A stretch of 64,000 nucleotides of DNA, taken from assembly GCF_003058465.1 (NCBI RefSeq), contig NZ_CP028901.1, forward strand, positions 3,348,001 through 3,412,000. The letters run 5' to 3'. How positions within the stretch are numbered: position 1 is the stretch's first letter; every line of letters begins with the position of its first letter. Positions 2,060 to 8,707 of this stretch are shown piece after piece. The position numbers and the translations under genes are program-made. This DNA is from Orrella marina. Lineage in GTDB: Bacteria; Pseudomonadota; Gammaproteobacteria; Burkholderiales; Burkholderiaceae_B. Under the pieces are notes generated by a model. That model was given only the letters and a program-made list of their open reading frames with translations. It had not been told where the DNA came from and made no database searches.

Positions 2060-2417
2060 ACGAATTGTTCCGGTGGTGTTCAGGTTTGACAGGAGGTCTT
2101 TTGCTAACGTGTCGTGGTGAGTGATTTCAGTCGACTGGGGCTCCGAGCTATCCGGTACAGACTCTGAACATACCGTGGGTGCGTAAAGCCTATGGGGTGG
2201 CGATTTCGTCTATCCAAGAACGATCGTTAAAGATCAATTCCATTCTGGTTAACTAACACAAACGAAGGGTCGAGCCAGAAGTCACTGTAGGCGATTGTGC
2301 AAAACAATCGGAAAATAAAAAACGCCCCGCAGGACGTTCTTGCTTGATGCACTATGTACTAGGCTTTCCTGGTCGGAGTGTCGCGACTTGATCGGACTCT
2401 ACCAGACTACGGTTAAA
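2060..2417. other. Intergenic region between livF and island left end
   Basis: No open frame here has protein-like features. The only structure seen is a weak minus-strand terminator at 2312-2337. This stretch should be the chromosomal sequence that originally followed the tRNA-Thr 3' end before the island inserted. Confidence 0.5.
2312..2337 (-). terminator. Probable original terminator of tRNA-Thr
   Basis: Read on the minus strand, a short GC-rich hairpin (ACGTCC, loop, GGGGCGT, with one G-U pair) is followed by TTTTTTATTTTCC. It lies about 80 nt beyond the tRNA 3'-end copy at 2418-2441, where a tRNA terminator would have stood before island insertion. The stem is short, so this is moderate evidence only. 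Confidence 0.45.
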
Positions 2418-2441
2418 TGGTGCCGGTGAAAGGAATCGAAC
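2418..2441 (-). repeat. Left attachment site: partial copy of tRNA-Thr 3' end
   Basis: These 24 nt match the 3' end of the intact tRNA-Thr(TGT) at 22927-22950 at 23 of 24 positions; the only difference is A versus G at 2435. The match includes the encoded CCA and most of the T arm, and ends abruptly. A tRNA 3' end duplicated in direct orientation is the usual footprint of tyrosine-recombinase integration. Confidence 0.75.
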
Positions 2442-2562
2442 AAAAACGCCAAAGTCTTTATTTATGCGGCTTTTCAGAGAGATCCAGGATTCCGAAAAAT
2501 AAATTGGTAAACCCCTGGGTAAAGAGTTGAATCCGTTACCGAAACACAACGTTTAGAGACCG

Positions 2563-2604
2563 CAATCAACGTTGAGGGTTTGGCAAACGATGGGCGTCTA
2601 TGTG
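2563..2604 (+). mobile_element. Remnant of an IS1111-group right end
   Basis: This stretch resembles the right end of the IS110/IS1111 element at 8979-9018. Both read TCAACG(A)TTGAGGG, then TTGGCAAAC, then GGGCGTC and ATGT in the same order and spacing with scattered mismatches. No transposase lies to its left, so it is an isolated end fragment just upstream of the Abi promoter. Confidence 0.5.
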
Positions 2605-2631
2605 CGTTATGGCGCAAGGCCATACTTTGTG

Positions 2632-2637
2632 TATAAT
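2632..2637 (+). promoter_or_regulatory. -10 element for the Abi leader RNA and gene
   Basis: A perfect TATAAT sits 79 nt upstream of the Abi start and about 10 nt before the predicted leader hairpin. A convincing -35 is not visible; TTATGG at 2607-2612 is the nearest candidate, with a long spacer. Confidence 0.5.
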
Positions 2638-2643
2638 TCTATA

Positions 2644-2698
2644 TAACAACACCCCCACGCCTCTCAAAGATGCGCACCATGGGGGGTTACTTTTTTCC
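2644..2698 (+). ncRNA. Candidate abiF-type RNA: leader hairpin with U tract upstream of Abi gene
   Basis: Between a TATAAT box and the Abi start lies a hairpin that pairs CCCCC (2652-2656) with GGGGG (2681-2685), extended by A-U pairs and a further C-G pair across a bulged A. A nested CGC/GCG stem (2658-2660 with 2672-2674) sits inside, and the outer stem is followed by TTACTTTTTTCC. This is a terminator-like small RNA layout. A conserved structured RNA (the abiF RNA motif) is known upstream of AbiF genes in many bacteria, and the gene here is of that family. Assignment rests on position and shape; a plain terminator or attenuator is the alternative. Confidence 0.5.
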
Positions 2699-3040
2699 GA
2701 GGCCGGAAAAATGAAGTTCAACAAGCCCGCGTTCACCGACGACCAGCAACTCGACCAGTTGATCCAGCGCGGCGTGGTCTGCGGCGATCGTGCCGAAGCG
2801 CTGCACTATCTCGGGCACATCAACTACTATCGGCTGGCGGCTTACTGGCTACCTTTCGAGGCGGACCATGCTAGCCATTCCTTCAAGCCAGGCACCCGTT
2901 TCGTCGATGTCCTGAACCTCTACATCTTTGATCGTGAATTGCGCCTGCTGGTACTTGATGCCATTGAACGCGTCGAGGTTTCTGTACGCACGGGCTGGGC
3001 TTATACCTTGGCCCATCGGTATGGCCCCCATGCGCACCTG

Positions 3041-3046
3041 AACGCT
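3041..3046 (+). repeat. Target-site duplication of IS21 element, left copy
   Basis: AACGCT directly abuts the left TG terminus of the element and recurs at 5477-5482 directly after the right CA terminus. A 6-bp duplication is within the 4-8 bp usual for IS21. Confidence 0.85.
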
Positions 3047-3107
3047 TGTCAATGGCCATTAATTTTGACCCACCTTTGGCCAATAAAATTGACCCACCTT
3101 TCTAAGA

Positions 3108-3848
3108 TTAATTTGCGGTTTTCTGTTTCAAGCGATAACTCTCTCCTCCCAGCATAAAGATCTGTGAATGGTGAATGACCCGGTCAATGATCGGCACCGC
3201 CACGTTGTCGTCATGGAAGAACTCACCCCAACTGGTGAAGTCTTTATTGGTGGTCAGGATGATGGACCGGTATTCATACAGGCTGTTGATTAGCTGGAAC
3301 AGGTTGTAGCGGGCCTGTCGTGTCATTGGCAGGTAACCTAGCTCATCAATGATCAGAAGGTCGTATTTGGCCAGGGAACTGACCCGCCTTTTGAGCTCTC
3401 CTTTCATCTCGGCCAGTTCAAGCTCTTCGACCAAATCCAGGGCGTTGCGAAACAGTACCCTGTATCCAGCTTGCACAGCCTTGTGACCGATACCGATGGC
3501 CAGGTGGGTCTTGCCCACACCGGGTGGTCCGATGAACACGAGGTTGTTTCGTTCGTCGATGAACTGGAAGTCCAGCAAGGCATTGACCTGACGCTTGGTG
3601 ATGGTGGTCTGATGTCGGTAATCAAAGCCCTCCAGGCGCTTGTCTGACGGGAATGACGCCAGCTTCTGGTTGCGACGCACGCGGTTATCCTGGCGCTGAA
3701 TCAGTTCGTGTTTGGCAAGCCGATCGGCAAAGTTGAGATAGGACATTTCATTGGCCTCTGCCTCGGCCAATAAATTGGTGAGTTCATCGGCAGTCGCGCT
3801 CAGTCGCAGACTGCGGTAACGGGCCACGGTTCGTTCAAGCTGGCTCAT
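3108..3848 (-). CDS. istB: IS21 helper ATPase IstB
   Basis: A 246-aa AAA+ ATPase that assists IstA in target-DNA selection and transposition of IS21. The Walker A motif is GPPGVGKTHLA near residue 108, and Walker B is LLIIDELGYLP. The N-terminal helical region (LRLSATADELTNLLAEAE) is the usual IstB lead-in. Its start overlaps the istA stop by 14 nt, as in most IS21 elements where the two are coupled. Family length is about 245-265 aa, so it looks complete. Confidence 0.95.
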   Translation of the reverse strand: MSQLERTVARYRSLRLSATADELTNLLAEAEANEMSYLNFADRLAKHELIQRQDNRVRRNQKLASFPSDKRLEGFDYRHQTTITKRQVNALLDFQFIDERNNLVFIGPPGVGKTHLAIGIGHKAVQAGYRVLFRNALDLVEELELAEMKGELKRRVSSLAKYDLLIIDELGYLPMTRQARYNLFQLINSLYEYRSIILTTNKDFTSWGEFFHDDNVAVPIIDRVIHHSQIFMLGGESYRLKQKTAN

Positions 3849-5361
3849 GGGTCACCTCCTGGCCAGTGCAGTGGCCAAGTTGCTGATAAGCGCTCAGATC
3901 CAGTGCATGTCGCGATGGCCGTATCGGCTCTGGGTGTCGCTCCCGCAAGACCGCTGCCGTGGCTGCCTCCAGGTAGCCTTGCAGCCGGGTTGCCGTCATG
4001 CCAGGGCGCTGTGCCAACGTAGCGATTAACGCCAGATTCACGGTCTTGTGGCGCTTGAGCAACTCGCGTACCGCCACCAACTGATCCTTATAGATCTTAG
4101 GCTCGGATCGCTTGAGTTGCTGGCACAACTGACCGCCAGTCTGCGAGCCAATCAGGGCATCGATGTCAGCTTCGAGCTTGCTCACACGCTGGGCATGATC
4201 CCGGTAATGGTGGGTGTTTTTGATCACCTTGCCCTTGTCATGACATAGGGCGTGACTGGCAATGACCTCATCGGTACTCAAGTCGCTGATGTGCAGTTGA
4301 TCGTTGGACTCCAGAACCCCCACCCGGGCCTGTTGCCAACGCATCGGTACCGAGTACTTGTTGGCCTTCCAGGCAATCAGACCCGTCTTGTCGGCTCTTC
4401 GTGTTTGCCCGGCCACAGGCTGCACACAAGCCGGTGACAGGTAACCGTTCAGGTGTTCACGCTCATCGCGCTCGAACCTCTCACGGGGCGACTCGCCGGT
4501 GGTGCCGTGCACGCGGTCATTGGCGACATTGTCGAGCCACTGCTGCACATGCTCACGCACATGCTCCTGATCCCGGAAGACCTCTCCATACAAACAGTCT
4601 TGCTTGACGTACTTCACGCCCGCTTCGACCTTGCCTTTGCTCTCAGGGTCATATCCTTCACAGGCGTGTATCCGGAATCCGGCTGTCGTCGCATACGCAT
4701 GGAAGCGCTGGTTCAGCGTCAACTCCCGGTACTGTTCGTTGATCACCACCAACTTGGTCTGATCGTAAACACACTCCTGGGGCAGGCCACCAAAGTACCG
4801 CATCGCCTCATCATGGAGTTGGATAAAAAGCTGGGTGTCCAACGGGCGAAATACCACTCCAACGTACATCAACCGGGAGTAGGACAGCACGAACACCACG
4901 AAGTGCAGTGTGCGCTCCTGGTCACCCACCATCACTTTGCGCAACTCACCCGGATCGACCTGACATTGAACGCCAGGCAGATCATCAAGCATGGGCTCGT
5001 AGTAGCGCACCTGTGCCGTGGCAACTTGCGCCTTGAGCGTACGCACATAGCGACGGATGGAACGATCCGAGGCGGGTAACTCTCCGACCTTGGCCTGAAG
5101 CTTACGTGCGATCTTGACCGCACTCAACTTAGGGAAACTTTGGAGCAAATGCTCGAGATAACCCCGATGGTCATCGAGGCGTTTGCTGCGAGACGGATCA
5201 GCCAACTGATCCGAAATAGCCTCGACCGGCATGCGAAGGTACTTGCGAACCGTGTTGCGCGACAACCCCAGTTCCTGACTGATGGCGCGAATCGACAACC
5301 CTTTGCCGTTATCGTGCAGTGCCTTGATTTTGTGTATCAAAACCCACTCCTTCACTGACAT
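3835..5361 (-). CDS. istA: IS21 transposase IstA
   Basis: A 508-aa DDE transposase. An N-terminal helix-turn-helix (IRAISQELGLSRNTVRKYL) is followed by the catalytic core, with candidate acidic residues in CQVDPGELR, VYDQTKLVV and ESKGKVEAGVKYVK (the D, D and E positions). The C-terminal half has the beta-barrel-like segment usual for IstA. The start codon is just inside the right end of the element, and istB follows with a 14-nt overlap. Length matches the family, with no frameshift seen. Confidence 0.95.
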   Translation of the reverse strand: MSVKEWVLIHKIKALHDNGKGLSIRAISQELGLSRNTVRKYLRMPVEAISDQLADPSRSKRLDDHRGYLEHLLQSFPKLSAVKIARKLQAKVGELPASDRSIRRYVRTLKAQVATAQVRYYEPMLDDLPGVQCQVDPGELRKVMVGDQERTLHFVVFVLSYSRLMYVGVVFRPLDTQLFIQLHDEAMRYFGGLPQECVYDQTKLVVINEQYRELTLNQRFHAYATTAGFRIHACEGYDPESKGKVEAGVKYVKQDCLYGEVFRDQEHVREHVQQWLDNVANDRVHGTTGESPRERFERDEREHLNGYLSPACVQPVAGQTRRADKTGLIAWKANKYSVPMRWQQARVGVLESNDQLHISDLSTDEVIASHALCHDKGKVIKNTHHYRDHAQRVSKLEADIDALIGSQTGGQLCQQLKRSEPKIYKDQLVAVRELLKRHKTVNLALIATLAQRPGMTATRLQGYLEAATAAVLRERHPEPIRPSRHALDLSAYQQLGHCTGQEVTHEPA

Positions 5362-5476
5362 GCCTCCGGCGGTAGATAAACGCGGGAGACAGTAACTGTT
5401 TCTGTGGCCAGAAGGCCACCCGGAGGTGGGTCAAAATTAATGGCCAGTACTGGGTCAGTTTAGTTGGCCACTAACA

Positions 5477-5482
5477 AACGCT
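5477..5482 (+). repeat. Target-site duplication of IS21 element, right copy
   Basis: AACGCT, the second copy of the 6-bp duplication. The Abi reading frame resumes directly after it with codons for SLFKKLAPNW. Confidence 0.85.
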
Positions 5483-6132
5483 AGTCTGTTCAAGAAGCTC
5501 GCACCTAACTGGAACCACACCCAGCAACGCCAGAAGCTGGAAATCGAGGCGCGTAAGAGCCAGGAAACATTCTTGCGGCATCATTACCAGAAGTACGACG
5601 AGCCCCTGCCTCCGGTGTGGGCCCTCGTCGAGATCATGACGCTTGGCCAGTTGTCCAAGTGGTATGGCAATTTACGCCACGGTGCGGATCGCAATGCGGT
5701 GGCACACCGCTACAACATGGACGAGACTAATCTCACGTCCTTTCTGCATCATCTTAGCGTCATACGCAATCTCTGCGCGCACCACAGCCGCCTGTGGAAT
5801 CGCGAGTTCACCTTCACTTTTCGCGTCCCGGGCCACCGCCCTTCCGCGCTGGTGGCTAGTCTGAACCCTAAGGACTCCCGCCGTCTCTACAATACGCTGA
5901 CTGTGTTGGCGTGGCTGCTCGACAGCATCAGTCCTCAGCACCACTGGAAGCAACGCTTGAAAACTTCGCTGTTGCAGCACTCCATTGATCCGCTGCACAT
6001 GGGCTTTCCGACAGATTGGGAGCGAAGGGTACTTTGGCAGGAGAACACAACATGAGCCTGGGATTCTTTGCTTACGTGTCGTTGGCCTTGGCAGAAACGG
6101 ACTTCATTTTGTCCAGCGCATGATCTGCATGC

Positions 6133-6280: not shown

Positions 6281-7573
6281 TTGGCACGTAAGGATAAGAA
6301 CGTGCAGTTCACGGCACTGCTACATCATGTGACCCCGCAATTGCTGCGAGAGAGCTTTTACGCTCTTCGCCGTGATGCGGCGGTGGGCGTGGATGGCGTG
6401 ACGTGGCGAGACTACGAGCAAGACCTGACCGAGCGGTTGAATCGGTTGCACCGGGCTGTACACACGGGTGCATATCGCTGCCGTCCATCACGGCGGGTTT
6501 ACATACCCAAAGCCGATGGAAGGCAACGTCCACTCGGGATTGCCTCTCTGGAGGACAAGATTGTGCAACAGGCGGTTTCGACCGTACTGAGCATGATCTA
6601 CGAAGAGGACTTTCTCGGATTCTCGTATGGGTTTCGACTGGGACGGGGTCAGCACGATGCGCTCGATGCTCTCACAGTCGGGATCAAGAGCCGACATGTG
6701 AATTGGATACTGGATGCAGACATACAGTCTTTCTTCGACGAGATCGATCACGACTGGATGCTCAAGTTTCTGAAACACCGAATTGCCGACAAACGGCTGT
6801 TACGTTTGATCTGCAAATGGCTCAAAGCGGGTGTGATTGAGGATGGGTGCAGGATGGCGGCACACAAGGGCACCCCTCAGGGGGCTGTCATATCACCGTT
6901 GCTTGCTAACATCTACTTGCATTACGTTCTCGATCTATGGACTCGGCAATGGCGGCAGCGGCATGCCCGTGGCGCGATGATTGTCGTACGCTACGCTGAT
7001 GACAGCGTGTTTGGATTCCAGAAAGAACAGGATGCTCAGCGCTTCCTCGAGGATATGCAGGCGAGAATGCACAAATTTGGACTGACCTTGAATACTTCTA
7101 AAACGAGGTTGATCGAGTTTGGGCGCTTTGCTGCTTCGAATCGGAGGCGGCGCGGGGCTGGTAAGCCTGAAACGTTTGACTTTCTGGGATTCACGCACTG
7201 TTGCGGCGTAGGTCGAGGCGGGCAATTTAATGTGATCCGCTTGACTGTCAAAAAGCGCATGCGAGCGACGCTTGAGGCCATTAGGCTGGAGCTGATGCGT
7301 CGCAGGCACCATCCAGTGCCTGTTGTCGGAAAGTGGCTTCGCACGGTTGTGCAAGGCTACTTTGCTTACTATGCGGTTCCCACAAACCTGTACCGTTTGG
7401 GTAGCTTCCGTTCCGAGGTCTGCCGCGCCTGGCGGCACGCCCTCAAACGAAGAAGCCAACGTCATCGGCTGCCGTGGGATCGGTTCCTCCGCCTGGTTGC
7501 TCGATACCTCCCTGGCCCGCGCAAATTGCACCCTTATCCTGAAGAGCGCTTCTATGCGTCATACCCGAGGTAG
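6281..7573 (+). CDS. ltrA: Group II intron reverse transcriptase/maturase, 5' truncated
   Basis: A 430-aa frame with a TTG start; the frame is open upstream only to 6266, so the true N-terminus is lost. It shows the reverse transcriptase blocks: RRVYIPKADGRQRPLGIAS, LDADIQSFFDEIDH, GTPQGAVISPLLANIYL and the catalytic YADD (VVRYADDSVFGF). The maturase region follows (DFLGFTHC, VVGKWLRTVVQGYFAYYAVP, and LHPYPEERFYASYPR at the end). It normally makes cDNA of the intron and helps splicing. Here it is unlikely to serve its own intron, because the 5' domains are missing and domain V is split. Confidence 0.9.
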   Translation: MARKDKNVQFTALLHHVTPQLLRESFYALRRDAAVGVDGVTWRDYEQDLTERLNRLHRAVHTGAYRCRPSRRVYIPKADGRQRPLGIASLEDKIVQQAVSTVLSMIYEEDFLGFSYGFRLGRGQHDALDALTVGIKSRHVNWILDADIQSFFDEIDHDWMLKFLKHRIADKRLLRLICKWLKAGVIEDGCRMAAHKGTPQGAVISPLLANIYLHYVLDLWTRQWRQRHARGAMIVVRYADDSVFGFQKEQDAQRFLEDMQARMHKFGLTLNTSKTRLIEFGRFAASNRRRRGAGKPETFDFLGFTHCCGVGRGGQFNVIRLTVKKRMRATLEAIRLELMRRRHHPVPVVGKWLRTVVQGYFAYYAVPTNLYRLGSFRSEVCRAWRHALKRRSQRHRLPWDRFLRLVARYLPGPRKLHPYPEERFYASYPR

Positions 7574-7675
7574 GAGCCGTATGCAATGGTATGGACGCCC
7601 CGATCTGAGGCTACGGCATCAGAGTGCCTTAAATTATGGGTGTCAAAACCATTACCTGACAGGAGGGCGTCCACC

Positions 7676-8707
7676 ATGAAGATTACGACAATTGGCATTG
7701 ATCTGGCAAAGAACGTTCTGCAGATTCACGGCGCTGATGAGCGCGGCAAGCCCGTGGTGCGCAAGCAACTCAAACGCGACAAGGTGATGGCGTTCTTCGC
7801 CAACATGGAGCCTTGCGTGATTGGCATGGAAGCCTGTGGCAGTGCACATCACTGGGCCCGTCAGTTGCAAAGCCTGGGGCATGAGGTCAAGCTGATCTCG
7901 CCACAGTTTGTCAAACCCTTTGTGAAGACCAACAAGCACGATGTGGCCGATGCTGAAGCCATCTGTGAGGCCGTCAGCCGACCCACCATGCGCTTTGTTC
8001 CGGTCAAGAATGTCGAGCAACAGGCGATGCTGTCACTGCACCGCGCACGTGAAGGATTCATCGTTGATCGAACCGCCACGGCCAACCGCATCCGGGGCTT
8101 GATGGCGGAGTACGGCCTGATCCTCCCGCAAGGTATCGGACATGTTCGCAGCAAGGTCCCTGAGCTGATTGAAGATGCGACCAACGAACTGCCAGGCATG
8201 TTCAGAAGGCTGATCGATCAGTTGCTCAACCATCTGCGCTGGCTCGACGAGCAGATCGAGATGATCGAAAAAGAAATCCATGCCTGGCATCGAAACAACG
8301 TTGACAGCCAGCGCCTTGAACAAGTTCCGGGCATTGGCGTGATCATTGCCACAGCCATGATTGCCATGATCGGGGATGCCCGCAACTTCAAGAATGGCCG
8401 AGAACTTGCTGCCTGGATCGGTCTGGTGCCACGACAGCACTCCACAGGCGGGAAACAGACTTTGCTGGGCATCAGTAAACGAGGCGATGCGTACCTGCGA
8501 AAACTACTGATTCATGGCGCTCGAGCACTGGCCTATCACGCGGGCAGGAAAGCCAATCCGGATCACTGGTTAAACAAATTGATCAATCGACGAAACATGA
8601 ATGTGGCCGTGGTGGCACAAGCCAACAAGACCACGCGGATTGTCTGGGCGATGCTGGCCCATGGACGAGATTTCCGACCCGATTACGCGTCAAAAGCACC
8701 CGCGTAA
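7676..8707 (+). CDS. IS110-family (IS1111 group) transposase
   Basis: A 343-aa DEDD recombinase. I chose the ATG at 7676, which opens MKITTIGIDLAKNVLQIHG, the family's usual beginning; an upstream in-frame start at 7586 would overlap the element end. The DEDD RuvC-like acids are visible in GIDLAK, GMEACG and KHDVADAEAICEA. The Tnp_20 domain follows (RLEQVPGIGVIIATAMIAMIGD, AAWIGLVPRQHSTGGK), with the candidate catalytic Ser in QHSTGGK. ACAGGAGGG about 8 nt upstream is a good ribosome site. The protein appears complete and the element may be active. Confidence 0.92.
   Translation: MKITTIGIDLAKNVLQIHGADERGKPVVRKQLKRDKVMAFFANMEPCVIGMEACGSAHHWARQLQSLGHEVKLISPQFVKPFVKTNKHDVADAEAICEAVSRPTMRFVPVKNVEQQAMLSLHRAREGFIVDRTATANRIRGLMAEYGLILPQGIGHVRSKVPELIEDATNELPGMFRRLIDQLLNHLRWLDEQIEMIEKEIHAWHRNNVDSQRLEQVPGIGVIIATAMIAMIGDARNFKNGRELAAWIGLVPRQHSTGGKQTLLGISKRGDAYLRKLLIHGARALAYHAGRKANPDHWLNKLINRRNMNVAVVAQANKTTRIVWAMLAHGRDFRPDYASKAPA

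Follow-up and report, generated by a model that had tools for sequence, protein, structure and literature searches.

What becomes of an RNA antitoxin when the gene for its toxin is broken is the question raised by a locus of Orrella marina, analysed here within a 64,000-nucleotide stretch of the genome (the window): a compact hairpin RNA precedes a gene of the AbiF (Abi_2, HEPN) family, and an insertion sequence divides that gene. We consider it very probable that this is a type III-like AbiF toxin/RNA-antitoxin (abortive infection) module in which the toxin is dead and the RNA looks intact. The locus adds to the AbiF/abiF RNA modules, a kind of system that is itself already known, and is a clear example of an RNA antitoxin that remains after its toxin has been lost; the point deserving attention is the solitary form of this RNA in phages.

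A preliminary description of the locus had named a TATAAT box and a CCCCC/GGGGG hairpin with a nested CGC/GCG stem, and all of these are present in the sequence between positions 2632 and 2696. The TATAAT (2632 to 2637, plus strand) is the likely -10 box of the RNA, with no good -35 box; in the hairpin, five C residues (2652 to 2656) pair with a run of G (2681 to 2686), the CGC/GCG stem being nested inside. On the 3' side follow TTAC and then six T residues (2691 to 2696), the U-rich tail directly 3' of the stem being TACTTTTTT (2688 to 2696, plus strand). The proposed identity as an abiF RNA was borne out by covariance search, in which cmscan assigned positions 2652 to 2687 (plus strand) to Rfam family RF03085 at 39.1 bits, only 2 bits above the curated gathering score of 37. 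Over the whole 64-kb window this match had an E value of 0.0014, and a tRNA was the only other match at gathering level; across the 4.23-Mb genome it was the sole match reported (E = 2.2e-5), and abiF RNA matches were found in 0 of 14 control genomes. With one Rfam match only, in the window as in the genome, tandem repeats of the RNA antitoxin are absent from the locus. The predicted fold of positions 2644 to 2697 has an energy of -16.9 kcal/mol; comparison with dinucleotide shuffles gives z = -3.0, and 2 of the 200 are equal or better. The hairpin with its U-run looks like its own terminator, as the preliminary description had it; that structure is seen, but a terminator scan of positions 2400 to 3100 did not flag the hairpin, its two flagged sites lying elsewhere. 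A consensus scan of the same interval for two-hexamer promoters found none, with 0.9 expected. Just 5' of the -10 box lies an inverted repeat, TATGGC/GCCATA (2608 to 2624), which is partly kept at a related locus (L003) and is a possible operator.

The RNA ends 23 nt before the ATG (2711) of the Abi_2 gene, with GAGG at 2699 to 2702 (plus strand) as a candidate ribosome-binding site of abiF. Both halves of this gene belong to the family to which it had been assigned. The N-terminal part (2711 to 3046, plus strand) matches Pfam Abi_2 (PF07751) over profile positions 1 to 76 of 184 (E = 1.6e-24), and the C-terminal part (5477 to 6055, plus strand), which is without promoter or start, matches positions 93 to 184 of 184 over 5477 to 6052 (E = 6.2e-28); the scores are 87.7 and 98.8 bits, against a cut-off of 25.6. 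Both parts also match PDB entry 8vz6 (E = 3.4e-16 and 3.9e-28, respectively), and neither has a match in NCBIfam. No Abi_2 stretches besides these two were found in the genome, and the abiF RNA directly precedes them. PADLOC labels both pieces AbiD; AbiD and AbiF are treated as one group in a recent report (PMC12373285).

Between the two parts lies an IS21-family insertion sequence of 2430 or 2431 bp (3047 to 5476 or 5477), recognised by its transposase and helper families and its inverted ends, so that in place of one uninterrupted AbiF gene the window holds a gene split by this element. Its open frames are istB, for the helper ATPase (3108 to 3848, minus strand; IstB_IS21, E = 1.8e-76; NF038214), and istA, for the transposase (3835 to 5361, minus strand; NF033546, IS21 transposase, E = 1.1e-76). 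Position 3046, at which the preliminary description ended, is the last base before the insertion, and the N-terminal frame continues into the element as far as a stop at 3155 to 3157, after 148 codons. The target duplication AACGCT stands at 3041 to 3046 and again at 5477 to 5482. Elsewhere in the genome stands a second copy of the element, with 11 differences over 2431 aligned bases; for that copy to be flanked by CTGCGTC at either end, the element must be taken as one base longer, and the duplication at the window locus is therefore given as 5 or 6 bp. Because the element cuts the promoter, the start codon and the N-terminal part from the catalytic half, where the HEPN RNase motif RNLCAH (5765 to 5782, plus strand) aligns with RNSCCH of 8vz6, the AbiF toxin of this locus is dead by anatomy. 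The gene is thus broken as described, and the RNA looks intact, again as described, as do its -10 box and its terminator. A gene for a group II intron-type reverse transcriptase lies just 3' of the abiF remnant (6281 to 7573, plus strand; TIGR04416, 347 bits), with no intron RNA found in the window at Rfam gathering level, and an IS110-family transposase gene adjoins it (7586 to 8707, plus strand). The supposed island, with the IS21, group II-type reverse transcriptase and IS110 elements side by side, is plausible and no more; its betaproteobacterial setting is supported by a same-family genome with a contig of a Burkholderiaceae MAG, the Burkholderiaceae being Betaproteobacteria.

The abiF RNA motif was reportedly first described by Weinberg et al. 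in 2017, and the structure 8vz6, of PbAbiF with its RNA, is said to come from Zilberzwige-Tal et al. in 2025. The window RNA resembles the motif (RF03085) in its covariance match, its place before an AbiF gene and its orientation, and differs in its low score and the interrupted gene. Both window halves align with PbAbiF, as does the HEPN motif, and the 8vz6 work reports one RNA bound per monomer (PMC12737573, PMC12373285); PbAbiF is an intact protein, in contrast to the split window gene, with which it is linked here by protein comparison alone. In Clostridioides difficile, an RNA with two abiF motifs (RCd22) is reported to share a promoter with abiF and to end mostly before the gene, to interact with AbiF and to neutralise it both in cis and in trans, and toxicity there depends on the R and H of the HEPN motif (PMC12373285). 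The window locus is alike in having an abiF motif before an Abi_2 HEPN gene, a promoter before the RNA and the layout of an attenuator, whereas the two motifs of RCd22 are followed by a terminator of their own (PMC12373285), the window RNA has one motif with the U-run directly after it, and the window toxin, unlike AbiFCd, is broken. The earlier suggestion of a small RNA-controlled toxin-like system fits this published attenuation and neutralisation.

On that model, a promoter just 5' of the hairpin would yield a short abiF transcript, about 53 nt long when counted from its predicted start; most transcripts would stop at the U-run in which the hairpin ends, only read-through would reach abiF, and the RNA would in addition bind the AbiF HEPN RNase and keep it silent. 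At the window locus the IS21-family element has inserted into abiF, parting the elements upstream from the catalytic half. The RNA family, the gene family, their order, the insertion and the motif in the severed half come from our computations, and RNA-AbiF binding, toxicity and attenuation would carry over from the published relatives.

Related genomes place the locus among others of its kind. An abiF RNA match at E <=0.001 was present in 4 of 61 genomes comprising O. marina and its kin (above the cut-off in 3) and in 19 of 274 from a class-wide draw (above the cut-off in 11), the O. marina genome being counted in both sets. Searching with the C-terminal part found AbiF in 45 of 268 family genomes, O. 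marina included. At the 29 nearest AbiF loci, that of O. marina left out, abiF RNA matches up to E = 5 were found in 20, above the cut-off in 5, and the other 9 had no Rfam abiF RNA match up to that value. Thirteen of the 15 matches below the cut-off belong to one AbiF group with a 44-nt lengthened RNA variant scoring 29.2 to 29.6 bits, and Rfam probably undercounts the family. The loci with this variant are L028, L030 to L035 and L037 to L042; by eye, similar hairpins were also seen at L043, L044, L047, L050, L053 and L054. In an alignment of 27 RNAs, changes on both sides are seen in 4 of the 8 predicted pairs, and the nearest loci (L003, L019, L020, L022 and L036) all have AACAACA 5' of the stem and TTACTTTTTT 3' of it. 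The relatives repeat the order of TATAAT-like box, hairpin and U-run, and in intact ones, such as L022 and L003, a single frame covers both AbiF halves.

A scan of cellular contigs, in which counts are given among the matches listed, covered at least 115 stretches with 116 sites: AbiF lay downstream of 80 and elsewhere in the stretch at 3, was absent from 27 with at least 1200 nt downstream, and 6 had shorter flanks. Counting as testable a site with at least 1200 nt downstream, or with AbiF in the stretch, AbiF was directly downstream at 80 of 110 testable sites listed. The pair formed by the first and fifth loop bases was Watson-Crick at all 116 listed sites. A U-tract follows the hairpin at 79 of the 80 AbiF-linked sites listed, and a -10-like hexamer stood 5' of 29 of 56 AbiF-linked sites, against 71 of 1583 control placements (first 80 of at least 115 stretches); these two signals suggest that, in the AbiF-linked loci seen, the antitoxin may itself act as the terminator, the coupling of the two being putative.

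RNAs without their gene also occur in cells. Among the 26 cellular RNA loci from the O. marina genome, the kin set and the class-wide draw, 16 have a clear AbiF frame, the window locus has its split gene, two have no more of AbiF than short, weak matches (L005, E = 1.2e-4; L024, E = 9.7e-4), and in seven (L008, L009, L011, L014, L015, L018 and L023) AbiF is absent from the stretch; two of these seven are from one genome, and L015 and L018 fall below the Rfam cut-off. Their neighbours include AbiEii (L009, L018), the N terminus of HsdR (L011) and a helix-turn-helix protein (L008), and a Fic gene adjoins the RNA at L014 and L024; by eye, L023 has an AbiE-type neighbour like those that Pfam identifies as AbiEii. 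Twenty neighbour proteins from the first 18 solitary loci of the contig scan include some of type I restriction (L197, L235, L229, L216), a terminase (L196), Panacea-domain, RhuM and HNH proteins, and several without a match. Type I restriction genes (HsdR, HsdS, N6 methylase) thus stand beside solitary RNAs in unrelated bacteria (L011, L197, L216, L229, L235). Apparent Cas13-like neighbours at L197 and L235 were rejected, these proteins of about 1100 amino acids being of HsdR type. Since AbiF-type genes are reported embedded in restriction-modification operons (PMC3710099), solitary RNAs beside such genes may be remnants of AbiF loci.

These loci bear on whether the window RNA is itself a silent fossil, neither part being used any longer and the intact look being owed to a recent insertion, a reading to which we give an even chance. 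The clean target duplication and the second copy of the element, with its 11 differences, would agree with it, as would L005 and L024, which keep the RNA beside short AbiF remnants only. Nothing direct speaks against it: the RNA is intact, as are its -10 box and U-run, though decay is still compatible with this, and 27 of 110 testable cellular sites listed have the RNA with no AbiF in the stretch, so that abiF RNA can persist alone. In the main reading of the locus, we would infer that the RNA is still made at the window locus and that the hairpin itself terminates transcription.

Solitary abiF RNAs are found in viruses as well. The viral scan used a core pattern with five free loop bases, its inner core fixed and the five outer pairs and loop ends free; the pattern occurs in at least 120 viral contigs (IMG/VR, L061 to L180), the reversed pattern gave no matches in viral contigs, and a variant core gave 91 viral stretches (L310 to L400). 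Our own AbiF profile found nothing in the 120 listed stretches or in the 91 variant ones, and Pfam Abi_2 found nothing over the whole records of the 120 listed (0 of 40, 0 of 50 and 0 of 30), an absence from fragments, since a completeness rating of 90% or more is given to none of the IMG/VR records. AbiF is directly downstream at 80 of 110 cellular and 0 of 102 viral testable sites listed (Fisher p = 3e-33, a value inflated by related contigs). When the listed viral matches are clustered by flank, 61 of 64 clusters have at least one member with 1200 nt or more downstream.

The fold has been kept in these viral RNAs. All five outer pairs form in 60 of 64 cluster representatives among the matches listed, against 81 of 1767 control placements, and the 60 fully paired representatives contain 23 different stem pairs; every one of the 64 listed clusters has a Watson-Crick loop pair (CG 40, TA 22, GC 1, AT 1). 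For the variant core, 29 of 30 clusters have such a pair and 24 of 30 a full outer stem. Doubtful sites are retained in these counts, namely the 4 of 64 representatives and 6 of 30 variant representatives without a full outer stem, some of which read like chance. Our own model gave 111 matches from 100 of the 120 listed viral loci, in which 99.4% of cells pair and 87 cells show both-side changes, against 20.8 in shuffles, an excess that sliding the partner destroys; the 111 matches amount to 79 distinct rows, a few of them weak or antisense, in an alignment fitted to the model. The viral abiF RNAs keep their fold by covariation, and the structure is kept by selection. A U-tract follows the RNA in 47 of 64 listed viral clusters (160 of 1768 control placements), and a -10-like hexamer precedes it in 11 of 63 (94 of 1718 control placements), a weaker promoter signal than in cells; a frame of at least 100 codons runs across the RNA site in 16 of 64 listed clusters.

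Viral neighbour proteins include terminase, portal, head, primase and lysis families. Among 48 downstream and 54 upstream viral proteins, which matched 50 and 69 PHROG families, respectively, no PHROG family was common to more than one neighbour, the top-ranked families having one member each; the viral RNA is therefore without a fixed partner gene. Thirteen GenBank phage records (L297 to L309) were hand-picked from 57 and 14 records matched by blastn, about half of the 57 being one group of Mycobacterium phages; 11 of the 13 bear the title complete genome, and the other two are MT836731, an UNVERIFIED clone, and HQ634153, whose title reads genomic sequence. All 13 regions match our own model (E <=0.02), and 8 are above the Rfam cut-off: S-SZBM1 (55.7 bits), S-CREM1 (52.2), PZL-Ah8 (50.1), CGphi29 (50.1), vB_AhaP_PT2 (44.4), ctMEh928 (40.0), Mycobacterium phage Beem (39.7) and RHEph21 (38.0). 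The five below it are Pasto, MT836731, Stm18, Pan2 and RW. Pfam Abi_2 matched 0 of the 13 records, so that in the listed viral records and in these 13 alike, some of which may be fragments, the RNA of a defence system is present without its effector. In MT836731, a DUF3800-VIII RNA (L305, 3350 to 3413; 76.7 bits) lies near the abiF-like RNA and is perhaps a second solitary RNA.

In the T7-like Aeromonas phages PZL-Ah8 and PT2, the RNA has the connector gene on one side and the capsid assembly gene on the other, and a 17-mer, AACCCTGACTATAGGGA, ends 16 nt (PZL-Ah8) and 13 nt (PT2) 5' of the Rfam match. Each 8-kb region has three copies of it, with 0.01 expected. When one mismatch is allowed, the PZL-Ah8 genome has 10 copies of the 13-base core of the 17-mer, always on the coding strand, with 0.06 expected. 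From its likeness to the T7 promoter, we take the 17-mer to be a promoter of the phage RNA polymerase; the PZL-Ah8 annotation includes a DNA-directed RNA polymerase and an RNA polymerase inhibitor.

On balance, we favour the view that the solitary phage RNAs act as natural decoy antitoxins in trans, an RNA counter-defence against AbiF. A phage that shuts off host transcription would deprive the host of its abiF RNA, and abiF RNA supplied by the phage from its own promoter would keep the host AbiF RNase silent; in the T7-like Aeromonas phages, the RNA would head a transcript from the repeated promoter-like motif, and broken loci such as that of the window could be one way in which free antitoxin RNA arises. 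Shutoff of host transcription is reported to deplete ToxI and free ToxN, and the phage PhiTE to escape with a ToxI-like RNA (PMC10853763); if the same holds for AbiF, phage abiF RNA would keep AbiF silent. In a literature search of limited coverage, this reading of phage abiF RNA was not found in print. Among the works cited in PMC12737573 is one on a stretch of lactococcal phage sk1 DNA by which a phage is protected from AbiF; the sk1 genome gave no abiF match with Rfam at gathering level or with our own model up to E = 1, and the lactococcal RNA may differ too much to be recognised in this way.

We think it unlikely that the solitary phage RNAs are instead plain terminators or cis-acting leaders of phage genes. 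Such a role would suit the U-tract of most listed viral clusters and the position of the RNA directly 5' of the capsid assembly gene in the two Aeromonas phages, but 17 of 64 listed clusters have no U-tract, the downstream and upstream neighbours have no PHROG family in common, and the core not needed by a terminator is kept, with covariation in the loop in all 64 listed clusters. Somewhat less likely again is that the solitary RNAs of phages and cells serve a partner other than AbiF, for example another defence protein. Some cellular copies do adjoin AbiEii, Fic or type I restriction genes, but the neighbours differ among themselves, AbiF is the regular downstream gene at the testable cellular sites listed, it is the only partner of abiF RNA found in the available parts of the published accounts, and copies on the restriction-modification side may be remnants, given the reported AbiF genes in such operons (PMC3710099). 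Highly improbable is the reading of the window hairpin as an ordinary attenuator or terminator of abiF with no antitoxin function, which its U-run, its position between promoter and gene and the U-tract at nearly all listed AbiF-linked cellular sites would allow, but against which stand its score as an abiF RNA, the keeping of bases unneeded for termination (the loop pair at every listed cellular site), the listed viral clusters lacking a U-tract and the neutralisation of AbiF in trans by the bound C. difficile RNA (PMC12373285).

If the phage RNAs are decoys, phages would be under strong and widespread pressure from AbiF, about 40 nt of RNA would be enough to lift it, and the presence of this RNA would go some way towards explaining which phages grow on hosts with AbiF. 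ToxN, unlike AbiF, is not a HEPN protein. Otherwise the type III ToxIN system is like the AbiF locus in that an RNase toxin is preceded by its RNA antitoxin, and PhiTE, which escapes by means of its ToxI-like RNA, offers a parallel to phage abiF RNA as a phage-borne mimic of an antitoxin (PMC10853763). As an RNA anti-AbiF, the phage RNA would be parallel to the RNA anti-CRISPRs (Racrs), which are likewise solitary viral RNA units mimicking the RNA of a defence system; Racrs mimic CRISPR repeats and their inhibition is demonstrated (PMC10651486), whereas phage abiF RNAs match an AbiF antitoxin and are putative inhibitors. The earliest printed phage case that we found is the abiF sRNA of cyanophage S-CREM1, where it is also stated that Rfam listed the RNA in three bacteriophage genomes; the available part of that report draws no link to neutralisation of AbiF, which the decoy reading adds (PMC9964418). 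A review calls the role of the S-CREM1 RNA unconfirmed and discusses protein antitoxins as phage counter-defence (PMC12197685). AbiF is also discussed as an ancestor of Cas13 (PMC12373285, PMC12737573), and the RNA logic of AbiF therefore bears on the origin of RNA-guided defence. PhiTE amplifies or acquires its RNA under selection (PMC10853763), whereas phage abiF RNAs are natural single or double copies in many phage lineages. Two close model matches were seen at five viral loci (L087, L112, L117, L144 and L158), recalling the two motifs of C. difficile RCd22.
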